Positions 3,115 through 59,295 of a stretch of 64,000 bases of DNA are shown piece by piece. The notes beneath the pieces are model-generated. The model did not search any database, had not been told where the DNA came from, and saw nothing but the letters and a program-made list of their open reading frames with translations. Position 1 is the first letter of the stretch; the number at the start of each line of letters is the position of its first letter. Source of the stretch: Arthrobacter sp. zg-Y238 (GTDB lineage Bacteria; Actinomycetota; Actinomycetes; Actinomycetales; Micrococcaceae); contig NZ_JANFLU010000004.1 in the NCBI RefSeq assembly GCF_024385525.1, positions 1 through 64,000 of the forward strand, written 5' to 3'. Position numbers and translations under genes: made by a program.

Positions 3115-3120
3115 CCGCAC

Positions 3121-3262: not shown

Positions 3263-3393
3263 CTGAAGGTAACTCAGAACTGTAACCCTGAATACAACTC
3301 GCTTCCACCGGCATCCTGCGGACAGCCGGGTGGCCCTAATGGCCGCTGGAGGACCGGATCGGTTGCCGGTTGTTCTACGGCAGGAGTGGGCAA

Positions 3394-3990
3394 ATGTCCG
3401 ATCTGGACATAATTCTCGAGAAGACGGTGCGGTCCTACGGGCGGCGGCAGATCCAGGCTGGCCACGCACTGATGATCGTCATGGAGCGTGACATTCCGCA
3501 TCCCATCGGAGAGGTGTGGTCGGCCCTCGCTGATCCGGAACAGCTGCGCCAATGGGTGGCGGATCCGGAAGGGGACCTGCGCCGCGGCGGCACCTACACC
3601 CTGCCGGACGGATCCCACGGGACGATCCTGCGTTGCGACGGACCCCGCCTTCTCACCGTGTCCTGGGCGCGGGAGGGGTCCTCCGTGGCGGAAGTGGAGT
3701 TCCACCTGACCGGAGAGGACGGGTTCACCCGCTTCGAGCTGCGGTACGCCTCCGTACGCAAGGGATTCGCGGTAACCGCCGCCCCCGGCGCAGGCCTCTG
3801 GACCGGCGGTGCGGGGTGGGAATATTTCCTCGATGTCCTGGAGGAGTATCTGGCCGGAACCATTCCTGACGAGCCCCAGGGAATCCGGTTTGAAATCGAG
3901 GCTGAGGGACCGCTCGCCCAGCTCTTCGAAGCCCGCAATGAACGGTGGCTGCGAACCGCCCATGACTTCGATCAGGAGCATATTCCCTAG
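3394..3990 (+). CDS. SRPBCC (AHSA1/START-like) domain protein
   Basis: This 198-residue protein carries an Activator-of-Hsp90-homologue-like domain from about residue 30 (ERDIPHPIGEVWSALADPEQ) to residue 150. It includes the typical pattern of a Trp after the first helix and alternating beta strands. Bacterial members bind hydrophobic ligands, but few have known functions. The ATG at 3394 was chosen over an upstream TTG because AGGAG lies 8 nt before it. The gene is upstream of clpB, but the 115-bp gap carries clpB's own heat-shock operator, so co-regulation is not implied. The last 20 residues are polar and probably not part of the fold. Confidence 0.8.
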   Translation: MSDLDIILEKTVRSYGRRQIQAGHALMIVMERDIPHPIGEVWSALADPEQLRQWVADPEGDLRRGGTYTLPDGSHGTILRCDGPRLLTVSWAREGSSVAEVEFHLTGEDGFTRFELRYASVRKGFAVTAAPGAGLWTGGAGWEYFLDVLEEYLAGTIPDEPQGIRFEIEAEGPLAQLFEARNERWLRTAHDFDQEHIP

Positions 3991-4031
3991 GCTTCGCGCA
4001 CAGCGGCGGAGGTGCGCACGGCTTTACTTCG

Positions 4032-4058
4032 AAAGTTGAGCCGATTAGACTCAACTTT
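4032..4058. promoter_or_regulatory. HAIR (HspR-associated inverted repeat) operator of clpB
   Basis: The inverted repeat AAAGTTGAG / CTCAACTTT with a 9-nt centre matches the HAIR consensus (CTTGAGT-N7-ACTCAAG) in the core TTGAG-N9-CTCAA and in exact spacing. It lies about 48 nt before the clpB GTG and overlaps a plausible promoter (TTGAGC, then TAGCAT). In actinobacteria HspR with DnaK represses clpB and dnaK through such sites. No hspR gene is in the window. Confidence 0.8.
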
Positions 4059-4105
4059 GTTTAGCATTGCGGAAGCATTCTTCGCTGAGGTTTTGAGGAG
4101 CCACC

Positions 4106-6730
4106 GTGGACACGAAATTCACGAACAAGAGCCAAGAAGCACTTTCGGCTGCGGCCATGAACGCGAACACTGCCGGAAATCCACAGATTGAACCGGCGCA
4201 TCTGCTGAAAGCGCTGATGGATCAGCGGCAAGGGGTCGCCGTCGCTCTCCTGAAGGCTGCCGGAATCAACGTGGATACCGTCAGTGCCGCTGCCAGCACT
4301 GCCATCCACCAGTTGCCGTCCTCCTCCGGCAGTTCGGTGGCGCAGCCCCAGTTTTCCAGGTCCTTGCTCCAAGTCATCAACGCAGCGCAGCAGGAAGCCG
4401 AGAAGCTGGGGGATGCCTTTGTCTCCACCGAACACCTCCTGCTTGGGTTGTCTCTCGATAACGGCCCTGCAGGAAAAGCGCTTCGGGATAACAACGCCGG
4501 GCACGACGCGCTCAGCGCCGTCCTTCCATCCGTACGAGGAGACCGCAAAGTGACCAATGCCGATCCGGAGAACACCTTCCAGGCTCTGGAAAAATTCAGT
4601 ACCGACCTGACTGAAATGGCCCGCTCGGGCAAACTGGACCCCGTGATCGGCAGGGACGCCGAGATCCGGCGCGTCATCCAGGTGCTCAGCCGCCGCACCA
4701 AGAACAACCCCGTGCTTATCGGCGAGCCCGGCGTCGGCAAGACCGCCGTCGTCGAGGGACTTGCCCAGCGCATTGTCGCGGGGGATGTGCCGGAAAGCCT
4801 GAACGGCAAGACCCTGCTGTCCCTGGACCTCGGGTCCATGGTCGCCGGGGCCAAATACCGCGGTGAGTTCGAGGAGCGGTTCAAGGCAGTGCTGGAGGAA
4901 ATCTCCAGCGCCGAAGGGCAGATCGTCACCTTCATCGATGAGCTGCACACCGTCGTAGGTGCGGGCGCAGCCGAGGGATCCATGGACGCCGGCAATATGC
5001 TCAAGCCGATGCTGGCGCGCGGGGAACTGCGGCTGATCGGCGCCACCACCTTGGACGAATACCGCGAAAACATCGAAAAGGACGCGGCATTGGAGCGCCG
5101 CTTCCAGCAGGTGTACGTCGGTGAACCCAGCGTCCCGGACACCATCGGCATCCTGCGCGGCCTGAAGGAGCGCTACGAGGCCCACCACAAGGTCGCCATC
5201 GCCGACTCGGCTCTTGTTGCCGCTGCAACGCTGTCCAACCGGTACATCACCGGACGCCAGCTTCCGGACAAGGCCATTGACCTGGTGGATGAGGCCGCAT
5301 CCCGGCTGCGGATGGAGATCGATTCCGCCCCCGAGGAAATCGACGAGCTCCGGCGTGCAGTGGACCGGCTCACCATGGAAGAACTCGCACTGGCGAATGA
5401 AACGGACGAGGCCTCGATGGAGCGGCTGGCCGTTCTGCGCGAGGACATGGCCAATAAGAAGGAACAGCTGTCGGCACTCAACGCTCGGTGGGAGGCCGAG
5501 AAGGCGGGCCTTAACCGGGTCGGCGACCTCAAGGCGAAGATCGACGAGCTGCGCAGCGAGGCAGAAAAATTCCAGCGCGACGGCGACCTCACGGAAGCCT
5601 CCCGCATCCTGTACGGCGAAATACCCGCCCTGCAGAAGGAACTGGAGGCAGCTCAGCAGGCCGAGGAGAACAGCTTCGGCGAAGAAACCCGGGAACTGAT
5701 GGTCTCCGAGGAAGTCACTGCGGACGACATTGCGGAAGTGGTCTCCGCCTGGACCGGCATCCCGTCCGGACGCATGCTGCAGGGTGAATCCCAGAAACTG
5801 CTGGACATGGAAGCAGCCATCGGCTCGCGCCTGATCGGGCAGAGCAAGGCCGTGGCCGCGGTCTCCGATGCCGTGCGCCGCTCACGGGCCGGCGTCAGCG
5901 ACCCGGACCGGCCCACCGGATCCTTCCTGTTCCTTGGCCCCACCGGCGTCGGCAAGACCGAACTGGCGAAGGCTCTCGCGGACTTCCTCTTCGACGATGA
6001 GCGGGCCATGGTCCGCATCGATATGAGTGAGTACTCCGAGAAGCATGCGGTGTCCCGACTGGTGGGGGCACCTCCCGGATACGTGGGCTATGAAGAGGGC
6101 GGCCAGCTCACTGAAGCGGTACGCCGCCGCCCCTACTCGGTGATCCTGCTGGACGAAGTGGAGAAGGCACATCCGGATGTCTTCGACATCCTGCTGCAGG
6201 TGCTCGACGACGGCCGGCTGACGGACGGCCAGGGCCGGACGGTGGACTTCCGAAATGTCATCCTGATCCTGACGTCCAACCTCGGGTCCCAGTTCCTGGT
6301 CGATCCGGGCCTGACCGAGGAGCAGAAGCGCGAATCGGTGATGTCCATGGTCAACGCGAACTTCAAGCCGGAGTTCCTCAACCGACTCGACGACGTGATC
6401 CTGTTCGATCCGCTGAGCCTGGAGGACCTGACCCGGATCGTGGACATCCAGGTGCGTGCCCTGGCCAACCGGCTGCATGAGCGCCGTCTGGTGCTGGACG
6501 TGACCGATGCAGCGCGGGAATGGCTGGGCCTGACCGGCTACGATCCGGCCTACGGTGCACGGCCGCTCCGCCGCCTGGTGCAGCGGGAGATCGGCGATCA
6601 GCTGGCCCGCGGGATCCTGGCCGGAAAGATCAGCGACGGCGACACAGTGCGGGTGGACAGGCCATCAGACGGGCTGGACGGCGACGGGCTGGTGGCCGAG
6701 CCCGGGCTTACGGTGGCTGCGGTCGCCTAG
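4106..6730 (+). CDS. clpB: ATP-dependent disaggregase ClpB (Hsp104 family)
   Basis: ClpB is a cytoplasmic hexameric AAA+ machine that extracts polypeptides from aggregates together with DnaK. The 874 residues match the usual length. There is a Clp N-domain (about 1-145), a first AAA domain with Walker A GEPGVGKT (about 205-212), a coiled-coil middle domain (about 405-530), and a second AAA domain with GPTGVGKT (about 611-618) and LLDEVEKAH. The C-terminal domain follows. The GTG start has GAGGAG upstream. The HAIR operator at 4032-4058 points to HspR repression relieved on heat shock. A strong hairpin terminator follows at 6740-6776. Nothing in the catalytic motifs looks altered. Confidence 0.97.
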
Positions 6731-6739
6731 ACCACAGCA

Positions 6740-6776
6740 AAAGGCGCGCGGCGGTTGATGCCCGCCGCGCGCCTTT
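6740..6776. terminator. Strong hairpin terminator after clpB
   Basis: A perfect 15-bp stem (6740-6754 with 6762-6776), A3 at one side and T3 at the other, encloses a 7-nt loop. It lies between the convergent clpB and the septum-formation-like gene and can serve both. Confidence 0.85.
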
Positions 6777-6789
6777 CTGCTGTTACCAG

Positions 6790-6821
6790 CGCTTACTCCT
6801 GCACCCGCTTACTCCTGCACG
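6790..6821. repeat. 16-bp tandem duplication across a stop codon
   Basis: CGCTTACTCCTGCAC occurs at 6790-6804 and again at 6806-6820. The right copy holds the stop codon (TTA read on the minus strand) of the leftward gene and the left copy lies just beyond it. It is probably a recent slippage duplication with no effect on the protein. Confidence 0.7.
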
Positions 6822-8446
6822 AGGGACTCGGTGAGTTCCTGGCCCTCAGGGGCGAAAACGATGCAGTCCACGCGGCGGTCACCAGAGGCCCAGGTCTGCT
6901 CCGTGGGGATGGACTTGGCCAGCTTCAAGCCCGGGAACTCCGAGGCGGCGTCGGCATACTGCACAGCCTCGCAGACATCGTTGACCCGCTCTTCCAAGGC
7001 GCCGGTGCCGGGGAAGGCAGCGTCCTCGGTGAAACTGTCGGTGGCGACCAACTGGGCGTTGTGCGGCGTTTCGCAGGTGACTACGGTGGCACTGGAATTG
7101 ACGTCGTCCCAATCCTTCAGGCACGCGCCGTCTTCCAGCTCCAGCGGACTTACGTCCTCGGAGATGACGCCTTCCTCCTTGCCGTTAAAAACAAACACGA
7201 AAAGCAGGATGGCGACGACGGCGGCGAGTACAACGCCGCCGAGCACCAGAATCAGGCGGGTGTTCCGCTTGCTCTTGCCGCTGTCCTTTGCCCCGGTGGG
7301 GGCGGTGCCAACCGCCCTCGCTGCCCCTGTCGCGGGCTCCGTGGTGCCGGAGGATGCACCCGGCTGGTTGAATGCTGCTGTTGCCCCCGCTGCCTGGCTT
7401 TCGGCCAGCCGGCGTGACCGGCGGGTGTCGCCGGCCGGCACAGCTGCCGTAACGGGCTCCGGTTCGCCTGACGCAGCCACCGGCGCGGGTGTGCGCTCCT
7501 GGTGCGCGGCAGTCATCGGAGCCGCCGCGTTGATGCCGTGCAGGGGGTGAGGCTCTGCGTCCCCTTGGGACGGTTCGTGCTCCGCTTCGCCAGCCGGTTC
7601 ACGTTCTTCCACTGGCTCCGGGGTGTCTGACCTTGATGCGGTTTCAGCCTCGGCACCATCGGCCTGGGACGCGTCCGCAACGGCTGCGCTGTCCGGCACC
7701 GCTTCGGCCTCGGTGCCATTGGCCTCGGCGCTATCCGCGCCGGGGCTATCGGCCTTGGGGTCGGCTGGGTCCTCTGCGCTGCCTGTCGCCGCTCCGTCCC
7801 CGCTGCCATCCGTCGCGGCGTCAGTTTCGGCGCTGCCTTCGGAGGCGGTGCCGGCAGCCGAATCGGGATCGGAGGCCGTTGCCTCGCCGTCCTCGGGCGT
7901 TGGGCCGGAAAGAGTAGTCGCCTCGCCGGTTTCGCCGGGCCGATTGGCGCCGGCGGCGTTAGCGTCCACCTGGACTTCCGTCCCGGCAGGAGCGGGTTCC
8001 AGTCCGGACAGGCGTCCCGCTTCGGCCGCGGTGGCCTCGGCTGCAGCGGTTTCCGAAGCAACCTGGTCGAGGGCTGCTGCTTCCACGGCGTCATCGCTCA
8101 GGGTCGGCTCGGCCAGGGAAGGTTCCTCCAGCTTGAGTTCCTCGGGTGCCACTACCACCGGTTCCGGGGGAAGCTCCAACGCAGCGGTACCGTCGCCGTC
8201 AGCTTCGGCGTCCGTAGTCGGTGCATCCACCACGGAGCCTACGCCGTCGGCCTCTTCGGCTGCGGCCGTTTCACCGCTCACGGCACCTTCGAAACTGCGT
8301 TCCCAGACGCCGGCGTCGTGCGTTCCATCTTCGGAGAGCCACGCGGGGGAGTCCGAATGCGCGCTCAGATCGGGGAAGGCGCCCGGCGTACTTTCCTTCT
8401 CCGGTGGCGGAAAACCCGCTCCCGGTGTACTTTTCTGATCGCTCAT
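6809..8446 (-). CDS. Single-pass membrane protein with C-terminal septum-formation-like domain
   Basis: This 545-residue protein has a very acidic, Ala/Glu/Asp/Ser-rich, probably disordered cytoplasmic region (about 1-385). One strong membrane helix follows (RLILVLGGVVLAAVVAILLF, about 393-415), then an extracytoplasmic domain of about 130 residues. That domain has spaced Cys residues in CLKDW, VTCETPH, VCEAVQ and DCIVF, the pattern of the actinobacterial Septum_form family. Members are often linked to cell envelope or division, but the function here is inference. The long tail is low complexity, so length will vary among relatives. The start has GGAGGA about 12 nt upstream. The gene ends in a small tandem duplication that contains the stop codon. 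Confidence 0.75.
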   Translation of the reverse strand: MSDQKSTPGAGFPPPEKESTPGAFPDLSAHSDSPAWLSEDGTHDAGVWERSFEGAVSGETAAAEEADGVGSVVDAPTTDAEADGDGTAALELPPEPVVVAPEELKLEEPSLAEPTLSDDAVEAAALDQVASETAAAEATAAEAGRLSGLEPAPAGTEVQVDANAAGANRPGETGEATTLSGPTPEDGEATASDPDSAAGTASEGSAETDAATDGSGDGAATGSAEDPADPKADSPGADSAEANGTEAEAVPDSAAVADASQADGAEAETASRSDTPEPVEEREPAGEAEHEPSQGDAEPHPLHGINAAAPMTAAHQERTPAPVAASGEPEPVTAAVPAGDTRRSRRLAESQAAGATAAFNQPGASSGTTEPATGAARAVGTAPTGAKDSGKSKRNTRLILVLGGVVLAAVVAILLFVFVFNGKEEGVISEDVSPLELEDGACLKDWDDVNSSATVVTCETPHNAQLVATDSFTEDAAFPGTGALEERVNDVCEAVQYADAASEFPGLKLAKSIPTEQTWASGDRRVDCIVFAPEGQELTESLVQE

Positions 8447-8723
8447 GGTGAACGTCTGTCCTCCCTGTAGGCGGTGGCATGATGCACCCCAAAACTGTCT
8501 CTACCCCCGACTTTAGCCAATATCGGAGGGCAGGCGCAGGGACCGGCGTGCCGGAGGCGCTGTGCTAATGCCCGGGGAACACCCCCTGCTGCGGCGGAGG
8601 GGGCACAAGCCAGCGGGAAAACATGTAACCTGTACTTACGACAAATTGACCAAATATTCCGGGGCCCTCGTTCATCTGCCCGAACGACTAACCTCCGGAT
8701 CGACGCAAAAAGGGGGTCACGCC

Positions 8724-8957
8724 ATGGGGCGCGGCCGTCAAAAGGCAAAAGCAACCAAGCAGGCACGGGAGATGAAGTACTTCACCCCTGCCACGGACTA
8801 CTCGGCGCTGCAGCGTGAGCTCTCAGGACCGACGAGTCGTCCATCCAGTCGATATCCCGAGGAGCCGGCTGAACCCGACTACTCGGCGTACGAAGATAAG
8901 TACGCGGATCAATTTGGCGACGATGACGATGATGAGGGTAACCGCCGCGTAGGCTAG
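8724..8957 (+). CDS. DUF3073 family protein
   Basis: This 77-residue protein starts MGRGRQKAKATKQAREMKYF, the hallmark of DUF3073. A basic N-terminus is followed by a Tyr/Pro-rich middle and a very acidic tail (DDDDDEGN). The family is confined to actinobacteria and often lies beside purM, as here, where it converges with purM. Function is unknown; the basic then acidic layout would suit nucleic acid binding, but that is speculation. The ATG at 8724 has AGGGGG upstream. A shared terminator follows at 9063-9103. The 277-bp divergent gap before it shows no other recognisable feature. Confidence 0.88.
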   Translation: MGRGRQKAKATKQAREMKYFTPATDYSALQRELSGPTSRPSSRYPEEPAEPDYSAYEDKYADQFGDDDDDEGNRRVG

Positions 8958-9062
8958 CGGTAATTTCCTCAACGACGTTGGCCAATTGCCTCCTTCAGCG
9001 GATCACCTCAGGGTGGGTCCGCTGAATGGCGTTAAGCCTGTATGTTCAGTTCACAGTTAAAT

Positions 9063-9103
9063 GCCAAGGCCCCGCACCGGTGTATCCGGTCCGGGGCCTT
9101 GGC
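9063..9103. terminator. Bidirectional terminator between DUF3073 and purM
   Basis: The 12-bp stem at 9063-9074 pairs with 9092-9103. An inner ACCGG/CCGGT stem extends the hairpin, and CTTT follows on the plus strand. It lies between convergent genes. Confidence 0.8.
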
Positions 9104-9121
9104 TTTGCCCGGCGGGACTGC

Positions 9122-10231
9122 TCAGGCGTAGGTGCCGACCAGGCGGACCGCGCCGCCGTCAACGCCCTTGGCGCCCTGGACGAAATCGGAATCGGCGCCG
9201 GACGGCGTTTCGATCCCGCCGACGGTGCCCATGACCCAGGCGGGGACGCCGCGGGCCGCGAGGCGCTCAAGCGCCGCGTCCGCGCTTTCCGCGTCGACGA
9301 TCGCCACCATGCCGACGCCGAGGTTCAGCGTGCGTTCGAGGTCCGGCTGAGGGACGTTCCCCAGTTCGGCGATCAGCTTGAACACGGGTGGCAGTTCCCA
9401 GGTGGAGCGGTCCACCGTCGCCTGCAACCCCTTCGGCAGCACGCGGGCCAGGTTTGCTGCCAATCCACCGCCGGTCACGTGGCTGAAACCGTGCACTCCG
9501 GCCGCGTCGTAGCGGGCCAGGTCCAGACAGTCGGCGGCGTAGACGCGGGTAGGTTCGAGCAGTTCCTCGCCCAGGGTGCGCCCCAGCTCGGAAACCTGGC
9601 GCTCAAGCTGCCAGCCGGCATGGTTGATGACGCGTCGGACGAGGGAGTAGCCGTTGGAGTGGATACCCGAGGACGCCATACCGATGACTACGTCGCCGTG
9701 GCGCACGCGGTCGGGGCCGAGGAGCCGGTCCGCCTCCACAACGCCCGTGGCAGCGCCCGCGACGTCGTACTCGTGCTCACCCAGCAGGCCCGGGTGTTCG
9801 GCGGTTTCCCCGCCCACCAGTGCCGTACCGGCCACCTCGCAGGCCGCCGCAATGCCGCGGACTATGTCGGCGATGCGCTCCGGCACCACTTTGCCGCAGG
9901 CAATGTAGTCGGTCATGAACAGCGGCTCGGCTCCCACCACAACGATGTCGTCCACAACCATGCCCACGAGGTCGAAGCCGATGGTGTCGTGGATGTCCAT
10001 GGCCTGCGCGATGGCAACCTTGGTACCGACGCCGTCCGTGGACGTTGCGAGCAGCGGCTTCCGGTATTGGAGCAGCCGGGAGGCGTCGTAAAGGCCGGCG
10101 AAACCTCCCACGCCGCCCAGCACCGACGGATTGTGGGTGGCCTTTACGGCCGCCTTCATCAGTTCAACGGCTTTGTCGCCGGCTTCAACGTCCACTCCTG
10201 CGGACGCGTAAGTGATGGGGGCGGCGTTCAT
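9122..10231 (-). CDS. purM: Phosphoribosylformylglycinamidine cyclo-ligase (AIR synthetase)
   Basis: PurM converts FGAM and ATP to AIR, the fifth step of purine synthesis, in the cytosol. The 369 residues include the N-terminal signature TYASAGVDVEAGDKAVELMK, the conserved TDGVGTK and DIVVVGAEPLFMTDYIA blocks, and the ATP-binding GGETAEHPG and GGGLAANLARVLP segments. All are intact and the length is normal for actinobacteria. The ATG overlaps the end of purF by 4 nt, so the pair is translationally coupled and read from the purF promoter. It converges with DUF3073. Confidence 0.97.
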   Translation of the reverse strand: MNAAPITYASAGVDVEAGDKAVELMKAAVKATHNPSVLGGVGGFAGLYDASRLLQYRKPLLATSTDGVGTKVAIAQAMDIHDTIGFDLVGMVVDDIVVVGAEPLFMTDYIACGKVVPERIADIVRGIAAACEVAGTALVGGETAEHPGLLGEHEYDVAGAATGVVEADRLLGPDRVRHGDVVIGMASSGIHSNGYSLVRRVINHAGWQLERQVSELGRTLGEELLEPTRVYAADCLDLARYDAAGVHGFSHVTGGGLAANLARVLPKGLQATVDRSTWELPPVFKLIAELGNVPQPDLERTLNLGVGMVAIVDAESADAALERLAARGVPAWVMGTVGGIETPSGADSDFVQGAKGVDGGAVRLVGTYA

Positions 10232-11796
10232 ACGGCTTCTTTCTTTTCGGCGTCGGTAAGCAGGTTCTCGTATTCGCTGTCCGGTCCCGGGTCACAGCCG
10301 TTGGAGCCGGCGTCCTCCGCGGGATTGGCGGGGTTGGCGGGTTCCAGCAGGTTCTTCCCCAGCCGGTCCGCGGCGGGCAGCTCGATCGGGTAGACACCGG
10401 TGAAGCAGGCCGTGCACAACCGTTCCCGCGGCTGCAGGGTTGCGTTGATCATGCCGTCTTCGGAAATGTAAGCCAGGCTGTCCGCGCCGATGGATGCGCG
10501 GATTTCCTCCACGGCAGCGCCGTTGGCGATCAGCTCGGCGCGCGAGGCGAAGTCGATGCCGTAGAAGCACGGCCACTTGACCGGGGGAGAGGAGATCTTC
10601 ACGTGTACCTCAAGGGCACCGGCTTCGTGCAGCATCCGGACAATGGCACGCTGCGTATTGCCGCGCACGATCGAATCATCCACCACCACTACCCGCTTGC
10701 CGCGGATCACGGATTCGAGGGCGTTCAGCTTCAGCTTGATGCCGAGCTGGCGAAGGGTCTGGCTGGGCTGGATGAAGGTGCGTCCCACGTAGGAGTTCTT
10801 GACGAAGCCATGGGCGAAGGGAATGCCGGATTCCTCGGCGTATCCCACCGCGGCCGGGGTGCCGGATTCCGGGACCGGGATCACAATGTCCGCCTCAACC
10901 GCGTTCTCCCGTGCCAGCTGGCGGCCCATCTCAACGCGGGATTCGTATACGGACCGGCCGGCAATGGTGGCATCGGGGCGGGCGAGGTAAACGTACTCGA
11001 ACACGCAGCCGGCCGGCGTCGGCTCACCGAAGGTACGGCTGCGGACCCCGGATTCGTCAATGGCGATGAACTCGCCCGGCTTGATCTCCCGGATGAAACT
11101 GGCTCCCACCGTCGCGAGGGCGGAGCCTTCAGAGGCCACCACCCAGCCGCGCTCCAGGCGCCCAAGCACCAGCGGCCGGACGCCGTAGGTGTCCCGCGCG
11201 GCATAGAGGGTGCCCTCATCCATAAACACAAAGGAGAACGCGCCGCGCAGTTTCGGCAGCAGTTCCATGGCCGTGTCCTCGAGTGACCGTCCGTCGCTGC
11301 CGTTGAGGAGGGCGGTGACCAATGCCGTGTCCGAGGTGTTGCCCTGGGCGATTTCACCGGCGCGGGGCCGGCCCTCGCGCTCGAGGATCAGTTCATACAG
11401 TTCGGCGGAGTTGGTCAGGTTGCCGTTGTGCGCCAGGGCCACGGTGCCGCTCGCCGTGGCGCCGAGGGTGGGCTGGGCATTGGCCCAGTGGGAGGCTCCG
11501 GTGGTCGAATACCGGCAGTGCCCAACGGCTATGTGCCCCAAGAGGGTATTGAGCGTGGTTTCGTCGAAGACCTGGGAAACCAGTCCCATGTCCTTGTAAA
11601 CGCTGATGCGGTTGCCGTCGCTGGTGGCGATGCCGGCGGACTCCTGTCCCCGGTGCTGCAGGGCGTAAAGACCGTAATAGGTTAGCTTCGCTACCTCTTC
11701 GCCGGGGGCCCAGACTCCGAAGACCCCGCAGGCATCCTGTGGGCCTTTTTCGCCGGGCATCAGATCATGGGAAAGCTGTCCGTCTCCACGTGCCAT
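10228..11796 (-). CDS. purF: Amidophosphoribosyltransferase
   Basis: PurF makes 5-phosphoribosylamine from PRPP and glutamine, the first committed step of purine synthesis. The 522-residue precursor has a 22-residue propeptide before the catalytic Cys23 (DACGVFGVW). The class II glutamine amidotransferase domain includes HRGQESAGIA and AHNGNLTN, and is followed by a PRTase domain with the PRPP loop VVVDDSIVRGNTQ. The C-terminal tail after about residue 480 is low complexity. The ATG is preceded by GACAAT 6 nt upstream, consistent with a leaderless transcript. It is coupled to purM by a 4-nt overlap. Confidence 0.97.
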   Translation of the reverse strand: MARGDGQLSHDLMPGEKGPQDACGVFGVWAPGEEVAKLTYYGLYALQHRGQESAGIATSDGNRISVYKDMGLVSQVFDETTLNTLLGHIAVGHCRYSTTGASHWANAQPTLGATASGTVALAHNGNLTNSAELYELILEREGRPRAGEIAQGNTSDTALVTALLNGSDGRSLEDTAMELLPKLRGAFSFVFMDEGTLYAARDTYGVRPLVLGRLERGWVVASEGSALATVGASFIREIKPGEFIAIDESGVRSRTFGEPTPAGCVFEYVYLARPDATIAGRSVYESRVEMGRQLARENAVEADIVIPVPESGTPAAVGYAEESGIPFAHGFVKNSYVGRTFIQPSQTLRQLGIKLKLNALESVIRGKRVVVVDDSIVRGNTQRAIVRMLHEAGALEVHVKISSPPVKWPCFYGIDFASRAELIANGAAVEEIRASIGADSLAYISEDGMINATLQPRERLCTACFTGVYPIELPAADRLGKNLLEPANPANPAEDAGSNGCDPGPDSEYENLLTDAEKKEAV

Positions 11797-11802
11797 GTGT
11801 GA

Positions 11803-11808
11803 ATTGTC
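11803..11808 (-). promoter_or_regulatory. -10 box of leaderless purF-purM operon
   Basis: GACAAT on the minus strand lies 6 nt before the purF ATG. No purine riboswitch or PurR-type palindrome is visible next to it. Confidence 0.45.
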
Positions 11809-11846
11809 TCATGGACAGCCGACGGTGCGGGCTGTGTGCGCCAGCG

Positions 11847-12167
11847 TTACGACGGCGGCTGTTCCCGGCTTTCCGGCTCGGCGGGATCCACGCTTTCAAC
11901 CGTGGACCGGCGAGCCCTGCGGACACTGATCCAATCGAGGATGAGGGCGGTCAAGGCTCCCAGCAGCAGCCCCGGGAGGCCGAACATTATGGTGAAGAAC
12001 CCGAGGGTGGCCTCACGGGTGAAGCTGGGGTTCTCGGCCCCGCCATAGGCGACAAAGAGGGCAGCAATAAACCCGGCAACCACGCCCAGTGCCAGGAAAG
12101 GGACGAAACGGGGAGCGCGGCGGACCGTAATCTCGCGGCGCTCAGGGCTGTGCTGCTCGGAAACCAT
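11847..12167 (-). CDS. Small two-helix membrane protein, conserved hypothetical
   Basis: This 106-residue protein has two hydrophobic helices (about residues 20-42, FVPFLALGVVAGFIAALFVAY, and 53-80, LGFFTIMFGLPGLLLGALTALIL) joined by a short loop. Both ends are charged. I recognise no domain with a function; similar proteins are common between the purine genes of Arthrobacter relatives. A TAGAAT box ends 6 nt before the ATG, so it probably has its own leaderless transcript, reading toward purF across a 50-bp gap. Confidence 0.7.
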   Translation of the reverse strand: MVSEQHSPERREITVRRAPRFVPFLALGVVAGFIAALFVAYGGAENPSFTREATLGFFTIMFGLPGLLLGALTALILDWISVRRARRSTVESVDPAEPESREQPPS

Positions 12168-12173
12168 GCTCCG

Positions 12174-12179
12174 ATTCTA
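12174..12179 (-). promoter_or_regulatory. -10 box of leaderless small membrane protein gene
   Basis: TAGAAT on the minus strand, 6 nt before the ATG at 12167, is one of the better -10 matches in the window. Confidence 0.5.
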
Positions 12180-12248
12180 CCGGGCGGGTACCCTCCTGCT
12201 GTGCCGATGGAGTTTAGGCGCGGACGGGACGGACCAGGCCCCGGGACG

Positions 12249-12614
12249 CTACGACCCGGTCCGGAACAGCGGCAGCACATCCGAAAGGTCGGCGCGCAGC
12301 CCCGAGGCCGCGACCTTCCCGGCGGCAACGGCGTCGGCCCAGGACTGCCGGCCGGTAACCAGCGCCAGCCAGGTGGCGCCGTCGGTCTCGATGACATTCG
12401 GGGGAGTGCCGCGGGTATGCCGGGGGCCGGCCACGCACTGGGTCACCCCGAACGGCGGAACCCGGACCTCGACGCTGTTGCCGGGGGCGCGTTCGGCGAG
12501 TTCTTCCAAGGCATAGCGCACTGCCATGGCAGTGGTGCCGCGGTCAGTTGCCCCGGCGGCTGCTGCCTGCAGTGCCGCCCGGCCGTCTTCGCCGGAGATC
12601 CGGCGCCGTGCCAC
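12249..12614 (-). CDS. Sterol carrier (SCP2-like) family protein
   Basis: This 121-residue protein resembles the actinobacterial 'sterol carrier family protein' (about residues 25-118: [27 protein letters not shown], then [16 protein letters not shown]). It has the hydrophobic ligand-cavity pattern of SCP2 proteins. No sterol or lipid ligand is known for this branch, which usually lies near purF, as here. It begins 4 nt after the asparaginase stop, so the two are very likely one operon. The ATG at 12614 gives the usual length. Confidence 0.75.
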
Positions 12615-12618
12615 GCTT

Positions 12619-13623
12619 CTAGCCCAGCAGCGCCGTGACCGGCGCGCCCAGCCGCAGGCTTCCCACGGGCTGTCCGCCGCCGAGCACCGGCTGCATGATC
12701 TTGTCCAGCACCTTCTCCACGGCCAGCGGGTCGACGGCGCCGCTCGCAGCCAGCAGCGTCAGGCCCACCAGGGATGCGGCGCGGGTATTGCCGTCGAGCA
12801 TCTTCAGTGCCACGGAAGCGCCGGTGTCGGTGCCCAGCACCAGGACACCCTCGGCACCGTTCTTGGCGATGATCCCGAGGTCCTCCATCACAACCGAGTT
12901 CTCGCGGCCGTGTCCGTGCACCGCCCAGGGGTAGTCGAGCATCGCGGTGGCTACCGTTGCCGCACGGGCGTTGCCGTGCTTGCCGGACGGCGCCTTGGCC
13001 AGCCGGCCGATGCCGCGGGCCAGCCCGGTCAGCGAGACAGCGGCCAGCGGTGCACCGCAGCCGTCCACCGCCCAGTGCTGCACGGTTTCACCGGTGAACT
13101 CCTCGATCACCTCGGCGATGCGGCGCTGCAGCGGATGCTGCGGGTCCAGGTAGGTTGCGTGGTCCCAGTTGTTCTCGGTGCAGGCCCAGAGGAAGGCGGC
13201 GTGCTTGCCGGAGCAGTTGAACGCGATCCGCTGCGGCCCCTTGCCTTCGCGGATGAGTTCATTGCGGGCCTCAGCGTCCTGCGGCCAGTCCTCGGGGCAC
13301 TGCAGGTGCCCCTCGGTGACGCCGGCGGCAGCCAGCATGCCGCGGACGACGTCGGTGTGTTCCCGGGAGCCGACGTGGCTGGCGGCGGCAAGGGCCACCT
13401 GCGGTCCACGCAGGGGCACTCCGGACTGCATGGCTGCGACGGCCTGGAACGGCTTGAGCGTGGAGCGGGGGAAGATCGGCGTAGTGATGTCACCGAGTTC
13501 CGTGACCACGGTGCCGTCGGCGGCCATCACGACGGCGGAACCGATGTGGCGGGACTCAATAAAACCGTTGCGCTCCAGCACGGCCAGTTCAACGGCGTCG
13601 GACGCGGTAAAAGTTGCGTTCAT
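12619..13623 (-). CDS. L-asparaginase (AnsA/type II Rhizobium etli-like family)
   Basis: This 334-residue enzyme belongs to the thermolabile asparaginase family typified by Rhizobium etli, unrelated to the classical E. coli type. It should hydrolyse asparagine to aspartate and ammonia. Diagnostic segments are [29 protein letters not shown] (Ser-Thr-Leu-Lys), [13 protein letters not shown] and [13 protein letters not shown]. The start at 13623 (MNATFTAS) was chosen because a TAGACT -10 box ends 7 nt before it; a longer reading to 13677 adds 18 residues unlike the family. It is followed after 4 nt by the SCP2-like gene. Confidence 0.88.
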
Positions 13624-13630
13624 GTTCTTC

Positions 13631-13636
13631 AGTCTA
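13631..13636 (-). promoter_or_regulatory. -10 box of leaderless asparaginase gene
   Basis: TAGACT on the minus strand, 7 nt before the ATG at 13623. It is identical to the box at the PPOX, PBP1 and methyltransferase genes. Confidence 0.5.
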
Positions 13637-13915
13637 AAGGGGAGCGGGAGGCGAACCGGCGATGACGGCCCCGGCACCGCCGTCGATCTCGCTGCCCCCC
13701 GCTGTTCCCCGGCGTGCGCTTTACCGCTGCAGCGTCCGCAGTTCCACTATCGATCCACCTTTGGCTACCTGCAAGGGGTGCGGGCCTACAGGTACCGGGC
13801 GGGTGGCAAATAGGTAGCCACGGGGTTTCGAACCGTCGCCGGCAGGCATCCCGGCGGCAATCCGCGCCGCGGCGTCATGTTGGGCAGGTGCTTTCGAGCG
13901 GTCCATCCCAGCAAG
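13637..13915. other. Divergent intergenic region before purD
   Basis: This is the body of the 306-bp gap between the asparaginase and purD genes. It has a 9-bp inverted repeat TGGCTACCT (13762-13770) / AGGTAGCCA (13812-13820) separated by 41 nt. Its role is unknown. No coding sequence or known RNA is seen. Confidence 0.4.
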
Positions 13916-13921
13916 TACCCT
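13916..13921 (+). promoter_or_regulatory. -10 box of purD-purC operon (possibly leaderless)
   Basis: TACCCT ends 8 nt before the purD GTG. A TTCGAG sequence at 13893-13898 gives a 17-bp spacer as a weak -35. There is no Shine-Dalgarno sequence, which supports leaderless initiation. Confidence 0.5.
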
Positions 13922-13929
13922 GATCTACT

Positions 13930-15273
13930 GTGAAGGTTCTCGTAGTAGGCCCAGGCGGCCGCGAACATGCCCTTGTCCGAGCGCTCCTGGCCGATCCCTA
14001 CGTCCGTGAGGTCCACGCGGCACCCGGGAACGCAGGCATTGCCCAGATGGTCCCGGTCCACCCGGTCGAGGCCACCGACCCCGCCGCTGTCACGGACCTG
14101 GCCCGGTCCCTCGGTTCCGACCTAGTGGTTATCGGCCCCGAGGCGCCGCTCGCGGCAGGTGTTGCCGACGCACTGCGGGAGGCAGGGATTGCCGTGTTCG
14201 GCCCGTCGCAGGCGGCCGCGCAGCTCGAAGCTTCCAAGGCCTTTGCCAAGCAGGTCATGGCGGCCGCCAACGTTCCCACCGCGATGGCGCGCATGGCCGG
14301 GACCGTGGAAGAAGCCGCCGACGCGCTTGACACCTTCGGCGCCCCGTACGTGGTCAAGGACGACGGGCTGGCCGCGGGCAAGGGCGTGGTGGTGACCTCG
14401 GACCGGAACGAAGCACTGGAGCACGCCCGAGCCTGCTTCGAGGCAGGCGGAACCGTGGTGATTGAGGAGTTCCTGGACGGCCCCGAGGTCTCCCTCTTCG
14501 TGCTCTCCGACGGACGGCACGTGGTGCCGCTGGCTCCCGCCCAGGACTTCAAACGGATTTTCAACGACGACGCCGGCCCCAACACCGGCGGCATGGGCGC
14601 CTACTCGCCTCTGGACTGGGCACCGGCCGGGCTGGTGCAGGACGTGGTCCGCCGGGTCGCGCAGCCGACCATTGACGAAATGGCTTCCCGCGGCACCCCT
14701 TTTGTGGGTGTGCTTTACTGCGGGCTTGCCCTGACGACGCGCGGGGTGCGGGTCATCGAATTCAACGCCCGCTTCGGTGATCCGGAGACGCAGGCAGTGC
14801 TGGCGCGGTTGAGGACCCCGCTCGGTGGTCTGCTGATGGCCGCGGCCAAGGGTGGCCTGGACGCCATGGAGCAGCTTAAATGGGACCCGCGCCCCGCCGT
14901 CGCCGTGGTGGTGGCAGCGGAAAACTATCCCGGCACGCCGAAGACCGGTGACCGGGTGCGGGGGCTGAAGAAAGCCGCGCAGCTGGAGGGTGTGCACGTG
15001 CTGCACGCCGGCACGAAGCTCAAGAAGGACAAGGTGCGCAGCGCCGGCGGGCGGGTACTTTCCGTGGTCGCGCTGGGTTCCACCTTGGACGAAGCGAGGG
15101 ACCGCGCCTACGCCGGCGTCGACCTGATCCGGCTGGAAGGCTCCCAGCACCGCACCGATATTGCCTTGAAGGCTGCCCGCGGCGAAGTGCGGGTCCCGGA
15201 AGGCAGTTCGGGACAGTCCGGCAGCATGCCTGCGCAGGACGCGGCTGCGGCCCGCGAAGGGAACCCGGCATGA
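13930..15273 (+). CDS. purD: Phosphoribosylamine-glycine ligase (GAR synthetase)
   Basis: PurD joins phosphoribosylamine to glycine using ATP, the second purine step. The 447 residues show the N-terminal KVLVVGPGGREHAL, an ATP-grasp core with YVVKDDGLAAGKGV (about 138-151), the FNDDAGPNTGGMGAY segment, and the FNARFGDPETQ metal-binding block near residue 280. The last 25 residues are extra and low complexity. The GTG start lacks a ribosome binding site but has a -10 box 8 nt upstream. The stop overlaps the purC start by 4 nt, so translation is coupled. Confidence 0.97.
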   Translation: MKVLVVGPGGREHALVRALLADPYVREVHAAPGNAGIAQMVPVHPVEATDPAAVTDLARSLGSDLVVIGPEAPLAAGVADALREAGIAVFGPSQAAAQLEASKAFAKQVMAAANVPTAMARMAGTVEEAADALDTFGAPYVVKDDGLAAGKGVVVTSDRNEALEHARACFEAGGTVVIEEFLDGPEVSLFVLSDGRHVVPLAPAQDFKRIFNDDAGPNTGGMGAYSPLDWAPAGLVQDVVRRVAQPTIDEMASRGTPFVGVLYCGLALTTRGVRVIEFNARFGDPETQAVLARLRTPLGGLLMAAAKGGLDAMEQLKWDPRPAVAVVVAAENYPGTPKTGDRVRGLKKAAQLEGVHVLHAGTKLKKDKVRSAGGRVLSVVALGSTLDEARDRAYAGVDLIRLEGSQHRTDIALKAARGEVRVPEGSSGQSGSMPAQDAAAAREGNPA

Positions 15274-24678: not shown

Positions 24679-25140
24679 CTACTCCGCGGCCTGCCCGGCG
24701 GACCCGATCAGGTAGTCCACCGCCATGCGGTAGCCGCTGATACCGGCTCCGCAGATCACTACCTCCGCCACGGCGGAGACGAAGGAATGGTGGCGGAACT
24801 CCTCGCGGCGGTGGATGTTGCTCAGGTGAACCTCGACCACCGGCAGTTCCACGCCGGACAATGCGTCCGGGATGGCAACCGACGTGTGGCTGTAGGCAGC
24901 GGGATTGATGACAATGCCGTCCGCAGTGCCGCGCGCCGCGTGGATGGCATCGATCAGATCGCCTTCGTGGTTGGACTGGACACAGTCCACGGTCCAGCCG
25001 TGGGCGGAGGCCGCGGCCATGGCCGCGGCCTCCACATCCGCCAGGGTGGAGCTGCCGTAAATCGCCGGTTCACGGGTGCCCAACAGGTTTAGGTTGGGGC
25101 CGTTAAGGACGAGGAGGTTGCGGGTGCCGGCTGCAGTCAT
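24679..25140 (-). CDS. aroQ: Type II 3-dehydroquinate dehydratase
   Basis: This 153-residue enzyme interconverts 3-dehydroquinate and 3-dehydroshikimate. Type II motifs are intact: [18 protein letters not shown] with the catalytic Tyr, [26 protein letters not shown], and [18 protein letters not shown] with the catalytic His. In the shikimate pathway it would be biosynthetic. Here it is coupled by a 4-nt overlap to an MHS-family transporter, which fits use of quinate or shikimate as carbon source instead. Which role applies depends on whether a second aroQ or aroD exists elsewhere. Confidence 0.95.
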
Positions 25141-27676: not shown

Positions 27677-27728
27677 AAACAACAGCAGGTGCCGTCCCCC
27701 GGATCGGGGAGGGCACCTGCTGTTGTTT
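27677..27728. terminator. Long bidirectional terminator between ohr and acs
   Basis: A perfect 17-bp stem (27677-27693 with 27712-27728) is flanked by A3 and T3. An inner CCCC/GGGG pair extends it. It lies between convergent genes. Confidence 0.88.
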
Positions 27729-55572: not shown

Positions 55573-56418
55573 ATGGAAAGCGCACAGAATCCCCGACTGA
55601 CATTCCTTGGCTGCGGCTCGATGAACGAAGCCATCCTCGGCGGAATCCTCGCCGGAGGCCTTGCCGCCGAGCAGGTTACCGCCACCGTCCGGCGGACCGA
55701 GCGGGCTGAAGAGCTTCGCACGGCGCACGGCGTCACTGTCCTTGCGGGCGGCGAGGATCCGGACGCGAACCGGAAAGCCGTCGCCGGTGCTGACCTGGTC
55801 ATCGTCGGCGTCAAACCCGTGGGTGTGGCTGATCTGCTGCGCGAAATCGCCGCGGACCTGCCCCGCGGCGCCGTGGTCCTTAGCGTGGCTGCCGCCGTGC
55901 CGCTGCACCTGATGGAGTCGCTGCTGCCGGCCGGCCAGTCCGTCATCCGTGCGATGCCCAACACCCCGTCCCGCCTCGGCCGAGGCGTTACGTCCATTTC
56001 CGCCGGCAGTTCCGCCGGCCCGGAGGCGATGGACCTGGCCCGCCGGGTGCTGTCCGCCACCGGCACCGTGGTGGAAGTGCCCGAAGAACAAGTCGACGCC
56101 GTTTCCGCTGTCAGCGGTTCCGGCCCCGCCTACGCGTTCTACCTGGCCGAGGCCATGGCCCGGGCCGGCGTCGAACTCGGCCTGGACCCGGACCTCTCGG
56201 CCCTGCTGGCCCGCGAAACGGTGGCCGGTGCCGGGTACATGCTGGCCGAGCCCGACGCCGATGCCCCGTCCCTGCGCCGAGCCGTCACCAGCCCCAACGG
56301 CACCACGGAAGCGGCCATCCGCACCTTCGACGAGCTGAACCTGCCCGGTGTGATCGAGGCCGGTGCCCGTGCGGCAGCGGCCCGGGCCGAAGAGATCACG
56401 AAGCAGCTGACTTCTTAG
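55573..56418 (+). CDS. proC: Pyrroline-5-carboxylate reductase
   Basis: ProC reduces pyrroline-5-carboxylate to proline with NAD(P)H. The 281-residue protein has the Rossmann start LTFLGCGSMNEAILGGIL (about 9-26), VIVGVKPVGVADLL, RAMPNTPSRLGRGVT and the C-terminal signature VSGSGPAYAFYLAEAMARAGVELGL (in parts). The length is normal. In mycobacteria proC is next to bldC and bS22; here about 7 kb, including the palindromic island and ktrAB, lies between them. Confidence 0.96.
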   Translation: MESAQNPRLTFLGCGSMNEAILGGILAGGLAAEQVTATVRRTERAEELRTAHGVTVLAGGEDPDANRKAVAGADLVIVGVKPVGVADLLREIAADLPRGAVVLSVAAAVPLHLMESLLPAGQSVIRAMPNTPSRLGRGVTSISAGSSAGPEAMDLARRVLSATGTVVEVPEEQVDAVSAVSGSGPAYAFYLAEAMARAGVELGLDPDLSALLARETVAGAGYMLAEPDADAPSLRRAVTSPNGTTEAAIRTFDELNLPGVIEAGARAAAARAEEITKQLTS

Positions 56419-56467
56419 TCCTGCCCGGTTCGTTGGCTCGCCGGCTGGCTGGGCCGGCCTCCGGGCC

Positions 56468-56534
56468 TGGCTCCGGCGGCAACGAAATTCCTACGCTCGC
56501 AGAGCTCGCGCGGAATATTAAAGCCCCCTCCGCC
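56468..56534 (+). repeat. Left outer arm of long inverted repeat
   Basis: This 67-nt arm matches the reverse complement of 56969-57034 with one 1-nt indel and three mismatches. The outermost 25 nt are identical. It contains the AT-rich GGAATATTAAAGCC block. Confidence 0.85.
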
Positions 56535-56663
56535 AGGCCCTGCGGCCGGACGGTAACGCTGCCGCCTCCGCCAGGCCCTGCGGCCGGACGGTAACGCTGC
56601 CGCCTCCGCCAGGCCCTGCGGCCGGACGGTAGAGCCGCCTCCGTGAGGCCCTTCGGCCGGTCC
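56527..56663 (+). repeat. 38-bp tandem repeat, three full copies plus a partial
   Basis: Copies start at 56527, 56565 and 56603, each opening CCTCCGCCAGGCCCTGCGG. A diverged fourth copy starts at 56638 (CCTCCGTGAGGCCCTTCGG). The three are nearly identical, suggesting recent amplification. Confidence 0.88.
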
Positions 56664-56693
56664 GTGCCCTGCGAGGCAAGCACTGCGCCAGAA

Positions 56694-56793
56694 TCCCTCC
56701 GGTTTGTCGGGATCCCTTCGGTTTGTGACAATCCCTGCGCTGCGCCGTGCAGGAAAGTGCACAAACTGCAGGGACTTGCACAAACCGCAGGGA
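56694..56793. repeat. Inner palindromic array of four 14-nt motifs
   Basis: The motif TCCCTNCGGTTTGT occurs directly at 56694-56707 and 56713-56726, and as its reverse complement at 56761-56774 (one further change) and 56780-56793. Both pairs are spaced 19 nt apart. The centre is near 56743, within about 8 nt of the centre of the outer arms. Confidence 0.85.
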
Positions 56794-56968
56794 GCATTAC
56801 CGACTCTGGCCCCGCGAGGCACATCCCTGCGGGGCATTCGTCCGTCCGCACCCGGGAAACCACGAAGCAGCTCACCGTCTGGCCCCTGTGCAGGACCTGC
56901 GCCTGCCGCTGAGAGGTGGCGTGTCGCCGTAGGGTGCGGGAAGGCGCCGTGCCGCCGCCGTAAGGCGT

Positions 56969-57034
56969 GGCGGAGGCGGCTTTAATATTCCAAGCGAGCT
57001 CTGCGAGCGAGGAATTTCGTTGCCGCCGGAGCCA
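56969..57034 (-). repeat. Right outer arm of long inverted repeat
   Basis: Partner of 56468-56534. A lower-identity continuation of the inverted symmetry runs inward from 56968 for about 25 nt against the 38-bp repeats (CCGCCACGCCTTACGGC against CCGCCAGGCCCTGCGGC). Confidence 0.85.
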
Positions 57035-57041
57035 CGCCTGA

Positions 57042-57125
57042 AGGCGACCCGAAGGTGACGAAAGCTGACCCGAAGCCGACCCGAAGCCGACCCGAAGGCG
57101 ACCCGGAAGGCGACCCGGAAGGCCG
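57042..57125 (+). repeat. 11-12-bp tandem repeat (GACCCGAAG-type)
   Basis: About seven imperfect units of GACCCGAAGGC, GACCCGAAGCC or GACCCGGAAGGC run up to the end of ktrA. They do not lie in a gene. They directly adjoin the right arm of the palindromic island. Confidence 0.8.
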
Positions 57126-57130
57126 AAAAC

Positions 57131-57799
57131 CTACGGCCGCGCCGCGAAGCGTTCGAGCAGATCCACGTGGCCGGACACGATCAGGGTGTCACGGCTGGAG
57201 ACCTTGGTGTTCGGCTGCGCGTAGGTGAAGTCCTCGCCCGGGGATTTCACCCCCACGACAGTGACGCCGTACTTGGCCCGCACATTGGACTCGCCCAGGG
57301 TGAAGCCCTGCGTCTCCTTCGGCGGGTACATCTTCACGATCGCGAAACCGTCGTCGAACTCGATGAAGTCCAGCATCCGGCCGCCCACCAGGTGCGCGGC
57401 CCGCCGGCCGGCGTCGGCCTCCGGATAGATCACGTGGTTCGCGCCGATGCGCGTGAGGATCTTGCCGTGGGCAGGCGTGATGGCCTTGACCCACAGGTGC
57501 TCGATGCCCAGGTCCACCAGGTTCACGGTGATGAGCACGCTGGACTCGATCGAGGTTCCAACGCCCACGACGGCGGCCGAGAAGTCCTCGGCGCCCAGCT
57601 GCTTGAGTGCCTCGATGTTCGTCGCGTCGGCCTGGACCACGTGCGTCAGCAGGCCCGAGGCCTTCTGCACCAGCGCCGGATCGCGTTCCACGGCCAGGAC
57701 TTCGCGGCCCTGCCGGACCAGCTGCTCGGCGGTGGCTGCACCGAAGCGGCCAAGTCCGATGACCAGCACCGGGGCATTGTGGGGAGGTCTGTCAGCCAA
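57131..57799 (-). CDS. ktrA: Potassium uptake regulatory subunit KtrA (TrkA family)
   Basis: KtrA is the cytosolic gating ring of a Ktr potassium channel. The 222-residue protein has an RCK N-domain with VLVIGLGRFGAATAEQL (about 12-28), which binds ATP/NAD, an acidic ligand VERDP at the end of the second strand, and an RCK C-domain (about 140-220) that may bind c-di-AMP. The TTG start at 57799 was chosen because it overlaps the ktrB stop by 8 nt, has AAAGG 7 nt upstream and begins right at the RCK domain; the frame continues upstream without a good start. Confidence 0.9.
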   Translation of the reverse strand: MADRPPHNAPVLVIGLGRFGAATAEQLVRQGREVLAVERDPALVQKASGLLTHVVQADATNIEALKQLGAEDFSAAVVGVGTSIESSVLITVNLVDLGIEHLWVKAITPAHGKILTRIGANHVIYPEADAGRRAAHLVGGRMLDFIEFDDGFAIVKMYPPKETQGFTLGESNVRAKYGVTVVGVKSPGEDFTYAQPNTKVSSRDTLIVSGHVDLLERFAARP

Positions 57800-59201
57800 T
57801 GATCGGCCTTTCTTCGGGGTAGTGGTAAAGGGTGTTGCGGTGGCGCACGGCGAGGGCCGCGGCAAGGGTGATGGTGCCGACGCGTCCGGCGAACATCAGC
57901 ATCGACAGGACGTACTTGCCCGAGGGTGGCAGGGCCTCGCTGAGTCCGGTGCTCAGCCCCACTGTGGCGAAGGCGGAAATCACCTCGAACACGACCGGCT
58001 CCAGGGACTCATCCGTAATGACCAGGAGCGCGGACGTGGCCACCGCCACCAGTGTGGCGCCCAGGATGGTCACCGAGATGGCCACCCGCATGGCGCCCTG
58101 GGGGATGGTGCGGCCGAAGGCGCGGACATCGGTGTCGCCGCGGGCCTCGGCCACCACGGCCAGGAACAGGACGGCGATGGTGGTGACCTTGATGCCGCCG
58201 GCCGTGGAGGCGGAACCGCCGCCCGCGAACATCAGCATGTCAGTGACGAGCAGGGTGCTGGAGTCCAGATCCGTCATGGAGACCAGATTGAAGCCGCCGG
58301 AGCGGGTCATCACCGAGGCGAAGATCGAGTGGATGATCTTGTCGCCCAGGGACAGGTCCCCGATGGTGCGGGAGTTGAACCACTCGAACGCACCCCAGAT
58401 CACGGCACCGGCCACCAGCAGGATGGAGGACACCAGTATTGTCAGCTTGGTGTGCAGGTTCCATTTGCTGACCCGGGCCCGGGTCTGCAGCAGGACCATG
58501 ATGACGGGAAAGCCGAGCGAGCCGATAAACACACCGAGCATCAGCGGAATGAGGATCCACAGGTCCTCTTCATACGGCACCAGGCCGTCGGAGTGCGGCG
58601 TGAAACCGGCGTTGTTGAACGCGGAGATGGAATAGAAGACCGCATGCCAGATGGCCTGGCCGGGGGACTCGCCCAGGATCATGAAGCGCGGTGCCATGAT
58701 CAGGGCGAGGGCCAGCTCAATTACGACGGCGGTGCTGAAGACAATGCGCAGCAGGTGGCCCACTTCGCCGAGCCGGCCCGTGTTCATGCCTTCCTGCGCC
58801 ATGAGCTTGCCGCGGACGCCGAGCCGCTTGTTCACGGCCAGGGCCAGCAGGGAGGCCAGGGTCAGGATGCCCAGGCCACCCACCTGGATCGCGATCAGGA
58901 TCAGCACCTGCCCGAAGGTGGACCAGTAGGTGGCGGTGGAGACCACGGTCAGGCCGGTGACGCAGACCGCCGAGACAGCGGTAAAGAAAGCATCGTGCAG
59001 CGGTGCGGATTCGCCGCTGCTGGAAGCAGCAGGCAGGCTCAGCAGGGCGGTGAACAGCAGGATGACCAGGCTGAAGACGATCAGCGCCAGCCGGGCCGGC
59101 CGGCCGGTGACCATTCCGCCCACGAACCCGCGGACCCCGGCAACAATGGCGGCACCGCTGCGCTGATCTTTCTCCAGCAGTGATTGCCGTGGGATTGCCA
59201 T
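57792..59201 (-). CDS. ktrB: Potassium transporter membrane subunit KtrB (TrkH family)
   Basis: This 469-residue protein has eight to ten membrane helices forming four M1-P-M2 repeats. The P-loop filter pieces can be seen: TGLTVV, NNAGF, TRSGGFN and TVGLSTG, each with the filter Gly. Coupled to ktrA, it makes a Na+- or ATP-gated K+ uptake system for osmotic adjustment. The ATG at 59201 (MAIPRQ) gives the usual N-terminus; an upstream ATG 42 nt earlier is less likely. The gene is divergent from acuC across 106 bp. Confidence 0.93.
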   Translation of the reverse strand: MAIPRQSLLEKDQRSGAAIVAGVRGFVGGMVTGRPARLALIVFSLVILLFTALLSLPAASSSGESAPLHDAFFTAVSAVCVTGLTVVSTATYWSTFGQVLILIAIQVGGLGILTLASLLALAVNKRLGVRGKLMAQEGMNTGRLGEVGHLLRIVFSTAVVIELALALIMAPRFMILGESPGQAIWHAVFYSISAFNNAGFTPHSDGLVPYEEDLWILIPLMLGVFIGSLGFPVIMVLLQTRARVSKWNLHTKLTILVSSILLVAGAVIWGAFEWFNSRTIGDLSLGDKIIHSIFASVMTRSGGFNLVSMTDLDSSTLLVTDMLMFAGGGSASTAGGIKVTTIAVLFLAVVAEARGDTDVRAFGRTIPQGAMRVAISVTILGATLVAVATSALLVITDESLEPVVFEVISAFATVGLSTGLSEALPPSGKYVLSMLMFAGRVGTITLAAALAVRHRNTLYHYPEERPIIG

Positions 59202-59295
59202 GGTGGTCAGATCTTTTCCGCGGGTTTCCGCAAGTAGTAGCACTTATCCGTCAGATGGGCGCGGACACCAATATCAGAGTAGCGCCCGCATCACG

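Follow-up and report, generated by a model that had tools for sequence, protein, structure and literature searches.

Facing copies of a dispersed, REP-like hairpin repeat and an unrelated repeat between them form the inverted island between proC and ktrA in Arthrobacter sp. zg-Y238

The gap between proC and ktrA in Arthrobacter sp. zg-Y238 raises the question of whether its long inverted repeats form one nested structure or several elements lying side by side. The island gives the top inverted match of the window, i.e., the whole 64-kb stretch of DNA analyzed (626 columns of self-inverse match, E = 1.5e-36), and positions 56419-57130 are predicted to fold with a z score of -14.9 against 20 shuffles. 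Only two other inverted matches in the window have E values of 1e-5 or less (4.8e-11 and 1.1e-6). The second-strongest inverted match is a strong plain hairpin at 27677-27728, just past an ORF ending at 27663, and appears terminator-like by eye; a 28-nt perfect palindrome at 25006-25033 lies within an ORF (24679-25140) that presumably encodes a type II 3-dehydroquinate dehydratase. A preliminary description had proposed that the island is a nested, nearly concentric palindrome with outer arms of 66 to 67 nt. The outer arms are real, as 56494-56546 is complementary to 56957-57009 (53 nt, 89%) and 56457-56492 to 57010-57045 (36 nt, 92%), but the proposed length was too short, the combined arms spanning about 89 nt (56457-56546 versus 56957-57045). 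The inner inverted set was likewise recovered (56713-56738 and 56768-56793, 85%). The symmetry reported to run inward from the arms is also present and is explained by a tandem array (56523-56660, plus strand, from repeat analysis) in which a 38-nt unit, a repetition of the first outer element's 3′ arm, occurs 3.7 times. The island is not an assembly error, because an independent genome of the same species (G009) carries the same arrangement, arms included, at proC-ktrA.

When the island was compared with its own genome by BLAST, the 70 matches sorted into two dispersed repeat families, designated A and B. Each outer arm is a separate hairpin of approximately 97 nt that belongs to family A; since both copies are oriented like the genes they follow, they point toward each other. 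Copy 1 (56453-56550, plus strand, as proC), detected by own-genome BLAST and by R1, a covariance model built from 19 family A copies (82.5 bits), starts 34 nt past the stop of proC (55573-56418, plus strand; TIGR00112 proC, 224.2 bits, over the cut-off). Copy 2 (56953-57049, minus strand, as ktrA; R1 match of 89 bits) lies 81 nt past the stop of ktrA (57131-57865, minus strand), which encodes a TrkA-N domain protein (PF02254, 5.1e-25) and matches no NCBIfam family at E = 1e-30. An 11-nt tandem array of 7.5 copies (57040-57123, from repeat analysis, unstranded) occupies the interval between copy 2 and ktrA, and the gene next to ktrA is TrkH (57792-59243, strand not given; PF02386). Between the two family A copies lies an element of family B (56681-56810, from the repeat search, unstranded), a hairpin of 19-nt units, e.g., TCCCTGCGGTTTGTCCGGA, placed in both orientations around a GC-rich center and containing the inner inverted set. 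Family B is distinct from family A; it occurs in 13 of the 29 genus genomes among the matches listed, nine genomes carry it at proC-ktrA, and it has no match in the plasmid collection. Four near-identical B elements about 200 nt apart adjoin a family A copy at another locus (L013:2444-3129, i.e., G000:C11:336643-337328).

The symmetry axes of the outer arms and the inner set, reported as nearly shared, are indeed 5.5 nt apart here, but in seven relatives with both arms and B they are 25.5 to 262 nt apart; concentricity is therefore accidental in this genome. A single concentric palindrome was ruled out on this basis, the arms being two separate copies of one repeat with an unrelated repeat between them. 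Folding was predicted on both strands, and the elements fold stably on each: the z scores of copy 1 are -3.45 on its own strand and -4.68 on the opposite strand, those of copy 2 are -5.16 and -5.82, and those of the B element are -7.19 (plus) and -5.55 (minus). The antisense strand of family A thus folds about as well as the sense strand.

The R1 search found 20 family A copies in the own genome. The block common to 40 aligned distinct sites, CGGCGGCAACGAAA ... TATTAAAGCCGCC, is invariant and is predicted to fold into a 6-bp GC helix, an asymmetric 3x3 internal loop (AAC/AAA), a G.U and an A-U pair, and an A/A mismatch, with a covarying inner stem and, at the apex, a small hairpin predicted further inward. 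Outside the block, the outer stem is longer, and its sequence is site specific yet self-complementary. At the 40 distinct sites, 94.8% of the cells are paired, compared to 85.8 ± 0.6% after shuffling, and the covariation score is 0.281, compared to 0.116 ± 0.010; none of 500 shuffles reached either the score or the pairing. Slid controls of the alignment gave at most 52.2% pairing, a comparison biased in favor of the structure, which was derived from the same alignment as was tested. In a separate test, the own arms outscored the 95th percentile of the swapped-arm scores at 31/43 sites. Family A shows covariation beyond the shuffled and slid controls, as for a structured RNA element. The earlier suggestion of a large RNA hairpin therefore holds insofar as the covariation fits a folded single strand, although the island comprises two separate hairpins rather than one structure. 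One family A copy (L024:2481-2553) carries extra GCAGAGTTC units in its apical loop, with fewer units in the same-species orthologue (L243) among the matches listed.

Among the matches listed, family A is present in 29/29 genomes of the genus, with 2 to 22 copies each. Using stricter filters that lose weak matches, it was found in 21/149 genomes of the family (7 of 32 genera), in 9/396 genomes of the order sample, and in 1/296 genomes of the phylum sample, which was the own genome. One of the nine order-level matches, in G482, lies outside the family, is weak (4.8e-5), and was not recovered by the pattern search. That search returned at least 108 named matches, of which 100 belonged to records titled Arthrobacter, 1 to Paenarthrobacter, and 7 to other bacteria, these 7 being taken for chance and left out of the counts.

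Of the 20 own-genome copies, 19 were assessed together for gene context, and 18 of these lie 17 to 132 nt downstream of a same-strand gene stop. Their host genes include proC, ktrA, rpoB, pyrH, hisD, and an RseP-like gene (the assignments of RseP, GrpE, and DnaJ used here are matches below the NCBIfam cut-offs). At the exception, L018, no gene was called in the vicinity, and the gene caller, a simple codon-usage script, missed genes at this site as it did at L258 and L291; the twentieth copy (L011:1452) is 852 nt from the nearest called same-strand gene. By majority context, 49 script-defined distinct sites, drawn from 75 of the 108 pattern-matched stretches, comprised 19 convergent, 13 codirectional forward, 8 codirectional reverse, and 0 divergent sites, together with 4 at locus edges and 5 inside a gene call, the last mostly chance matches. 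The script pattern is loose, and chance matches inside genes were removed by eye or by means of the invariant block. Only 2 of 259 raw copies had a divergent context, compared to a background in the same loci of 223 codirectional, 126 convergent, and 66 divergent gaps of at least 100 nt. In convergent gaps, the same-strand gene was the nearer one in 16/21 cases, and the excess of forward over reverse codirectional sites was not significant. Nearly all family A copies lie in gaps bordered by the 3′ end of at least one gene.

The proC and ktrA genes are adjacent in all 29 genus genomes, but the gap between them ranges from 0 nt (touching or overlapping) to 1,359 nt. Two family A copies are present in 8 of these genomes, the ktrA copy alone in 2, and none in 19. 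The comparison of this gap suggested in the preliminary description thus revealed neither a constant length nor a structure restricted to one locus, as the element occurs at many loci. In other species (L212, L214, L215, and L221-L224), different repeated palindromes occupy the gap, so this gap resembles a general hotspot of repeats peculiar to individual species. Gaps inside core operons also contain family A. Between rpoB and rpoC it is present in 22 of the 29 genomes, 20 times forward and twice reversed with another arm type (G005 and G013), while in the remaining seven inspection by eye shows nothing beyond a plain hairpin of roughly 11 bp. Copies at rpoB-rpoC are found in other genera as well; after rpoB in the named and family loci, family A is forward in 16 and reversed in 7 of 23 loci, a partly redundant set (the same genome twice, or genomes of the 29-genome set) counted over 101 of the 108 stretches. 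Between grpE and dnaJ, the element is forward in eight genomes (L070/L189, L073/L373, L075, L079, L100, L195, L162/L381, and L382) and reversed in two (L152 and L371). The pyrH-frr gap holds it too, and in one other genus three genomes (L383, L388, and L390) carry at gyrB-gyrA a variant with a short loop and a similar fold. The occurrence of either orientation, presence, or absence at one gap suggests repeated gain, loss, or inversion, and absence at rpoB-rpoC in 7/29 and at proC-ktrA in 19/29 genomes implies that the element is dispensable there. In a further set of loci, facing family A copies bracket approximately 0.8 to 13 kb of differing gene content (L346 [G024], 1182-14103; L347-L353 and L355); for L347-L353 and L355, the sameness of the flanking genes was judged by gene length only.

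Against five relatives, the mean identity of the family A core was 94.8% and that of the arms 94.1% (81 comparisons, restricted to copies still showing the block, which favors high values), compared to 86.6% for host third codon positions (77 comparisons), 73.3% and 71.9% for the flanks, and 60.9% for shuffled flank. The core exceeded the third codon positions in 66 of 77 comparisons. Within the species, the cores were less conserved than third codon positions (95.5% versus 97.2%), whereas in G028 they were far more so (94.1% versus 78.2%, in a comparison that took in 12 of 16 grouped regions). Since core identity is nearly flat with distance, some positions vary fast while the rest are held. 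Sites keep their own arms across species among the matches listed, which speaks against gene conversion between copies. Family A is conserved where its flanks diverge.

The identification of the elements is firm: a REP-like hairpin repeat occurs twice in the island, once past the end of proC and once past the end of ktrA, and one B copy separates the two. As to why family A persists, we lean toward the view that it is kept as an mRNA hairpin acting at 3′ ends or in processing. In related bacteria, the element recurs in gaps within core operons and is therefore probably useful to the mRNA. Some copying process would have multiplied it, after which copies would have spread into gene-end and intra-operon gaps and been kept by selection; the transcribed hairpin would then cap or segment the message. 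At facing genes such as proC and ktrA, it could serve as a 3′-end hairpin against 3′-5′ decay or read-through. A review (PMC7509114) states that 3′ stem-loops block 3′-5′ exoribonucleases and lists repeated extragenic palindromes among the structures that degradosomes help process. Inside rpoB-rpoC, grpE-dnaJ, gyrB-gyrA, and pyrH-frr, the hairpin may instead mark a boundary for mRNA processing or stability and so set the ratio of the genes on either side, and its invariant loop is perhaps bound by a protein. A bolder version, which we advance only tentatively, is that family A represents a new class of operon-segmenting hairpin in the Micrococcaceae whose AAC/AAA loop is read by a dedicated factor; it would occupy the rpoB-rpoC, grpE-dnaJ, and gyrB-gyrA gaps in several genera or species and, having turned mobile in one Arthrobacter lineage, would have reached about 20 gene ends in each genome there.

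It is rather doubtful, though worth serious consideration, that family A is a selfish mobile hairpin and nothing more, i.e., a non-autonomous MITE- or REP-type element whose siting at gene ends reflects tolerated or targeted insertion and whose block is the recognition site of an enzyme. Its dispersal, the arm subfamilies common to unrelated sites, the presence or absence and both orientations at one gap, and the conservation of the block in whichever orientation would all be expected of such an element, and to this extent the earlier proposal of a MITE-like mobile palindrome fits a mobile-type repeat, although not as one palindrome. However, among the matches listed, sites with site-specific arms are common to several species, and the most distant of these (G028) has diverged by an average of 22% at third codon positions; the shared copies are therefore old yet well conserved. 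In addition, the RAYT-type transposase domain Y1_Tnp (PF01797) was detected in neither the own genome (0/1) nor any genus genome (0/29), while the same search found it in 5/14 control genomes, and a RAYT-driven REP was ruled out on this basis. A search with one family A copy gave no match in plasmid or phage collections. Carriage by phages or plasmids was likewise rejected, the only IMG/VR pattern match being without complementary outer arms and judged by eye to be chance. Nor did a comparison by eye of proC-ktrA and rpoB-rpoC gaps with and without the element identify a target duplication, the flanks being too diverged to place the junction.

Less probable still is an element acting at the DNA level, in which a protein binds the block or an extruded hairpin without transcription and template switching at quasi-palindromes keeps the arms complementary. 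The retention of reversed copies at the same gaps (rpoB-rpoC and grpE-dnaJ) agrees with this reading and argues against a purely sense-strand RNA motif. The excess of G.U over A.C, which would mark pairing in RNA, is also not clear: at 43 distinct sites the ratio was 22:13 (swapped control, 477:312), in a redundant set 190:77 (787:420), and in a cruder first count 335:375 (1148:1263), and at two positions of the inner stem C-A mismatches outnumber G.U (12 and 14 versus 2 each). The near-absence from divergent gaps is nevertheless unexpected for a chromosomal protein-binding platform, one of the three readings offered in the preliminary description, and the asymmetric internal loop persists although template switching would be expected to level it. 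Finally, that the arms are ordinary bidirectional intrinsic terminators of two convergent genes, as the facing genes and strong hairpins might suggest, is very improbable, because the element recurs inside core operons (rpoB-rpoC, pyrH-frr, grpE-dnaJ, and gyrB-gyrA), where a strong terminator is unlikely, and has no T tract (by eye, a T-run follows neither arm, and a scan of loops of 3 to 8 nt found 0 T-tailed terminator-like sites in 55900-57600, with 1.3 expected), and its sequence is conserved far beyond the needs of a terminator.

By type, family A belongs with REP-like extragenic hairpins. REP and BIME elements are dispersed, extragenic, and hairpin forming, often occur as inverted pairs near gene 3′ ends and in operons, and contain roughly 30 to 40 nt of constant sequence. 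Family A shares with them the dispersal, the palindromic extragenic form, and the location near gene 3′ ends or within operons but differs in its size of approximately 97 nt, its invariant asymmetric loop, its site-specific, covarying outer stem, and its occurrence in a genus in which the Y1_Tnp search found no RAYT-type transposase. Correia and NEMIS elements are MITEs, small and non-coding with inverted repeats, that are cotranscribed and fold in mRNA; family A is likewise a small non-coding inverted-repeat element, but its outer stem is not a constant terminal repeat, and the search for Y1_Tnp identified no parental insertion sequence. As in Rfam-type cis-acting RNAs, invariant loop letters lie between covarying helices; family A differs in occurring in both orientations, and Rfam 15 returned no family at gathering score, with three sub-threshold matches. 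An integron attC-like site and a kink-turn were set aside on comparison with the consensus features alone. No description of family A was apparent in searches of the open-licence literature; the RepRanger work tabulates counts for Arthrobacter livingstonensis (PMC12306157).

Family A thus offers a compact case of a hairpin repeat that is both dispersed and structurally constrained. The search of the genus yielded no RAYT-type enzyme, and the gaps in which the repeat recurs include those separating the genes for subunits of RNA polymerase, of gyrase, and of a chaperone system. Should it segment mRNA, the repeat would amount to a portable device for tuning operon stoichiometry; should it be selfish, interest would shift to the enzyme that copies it.
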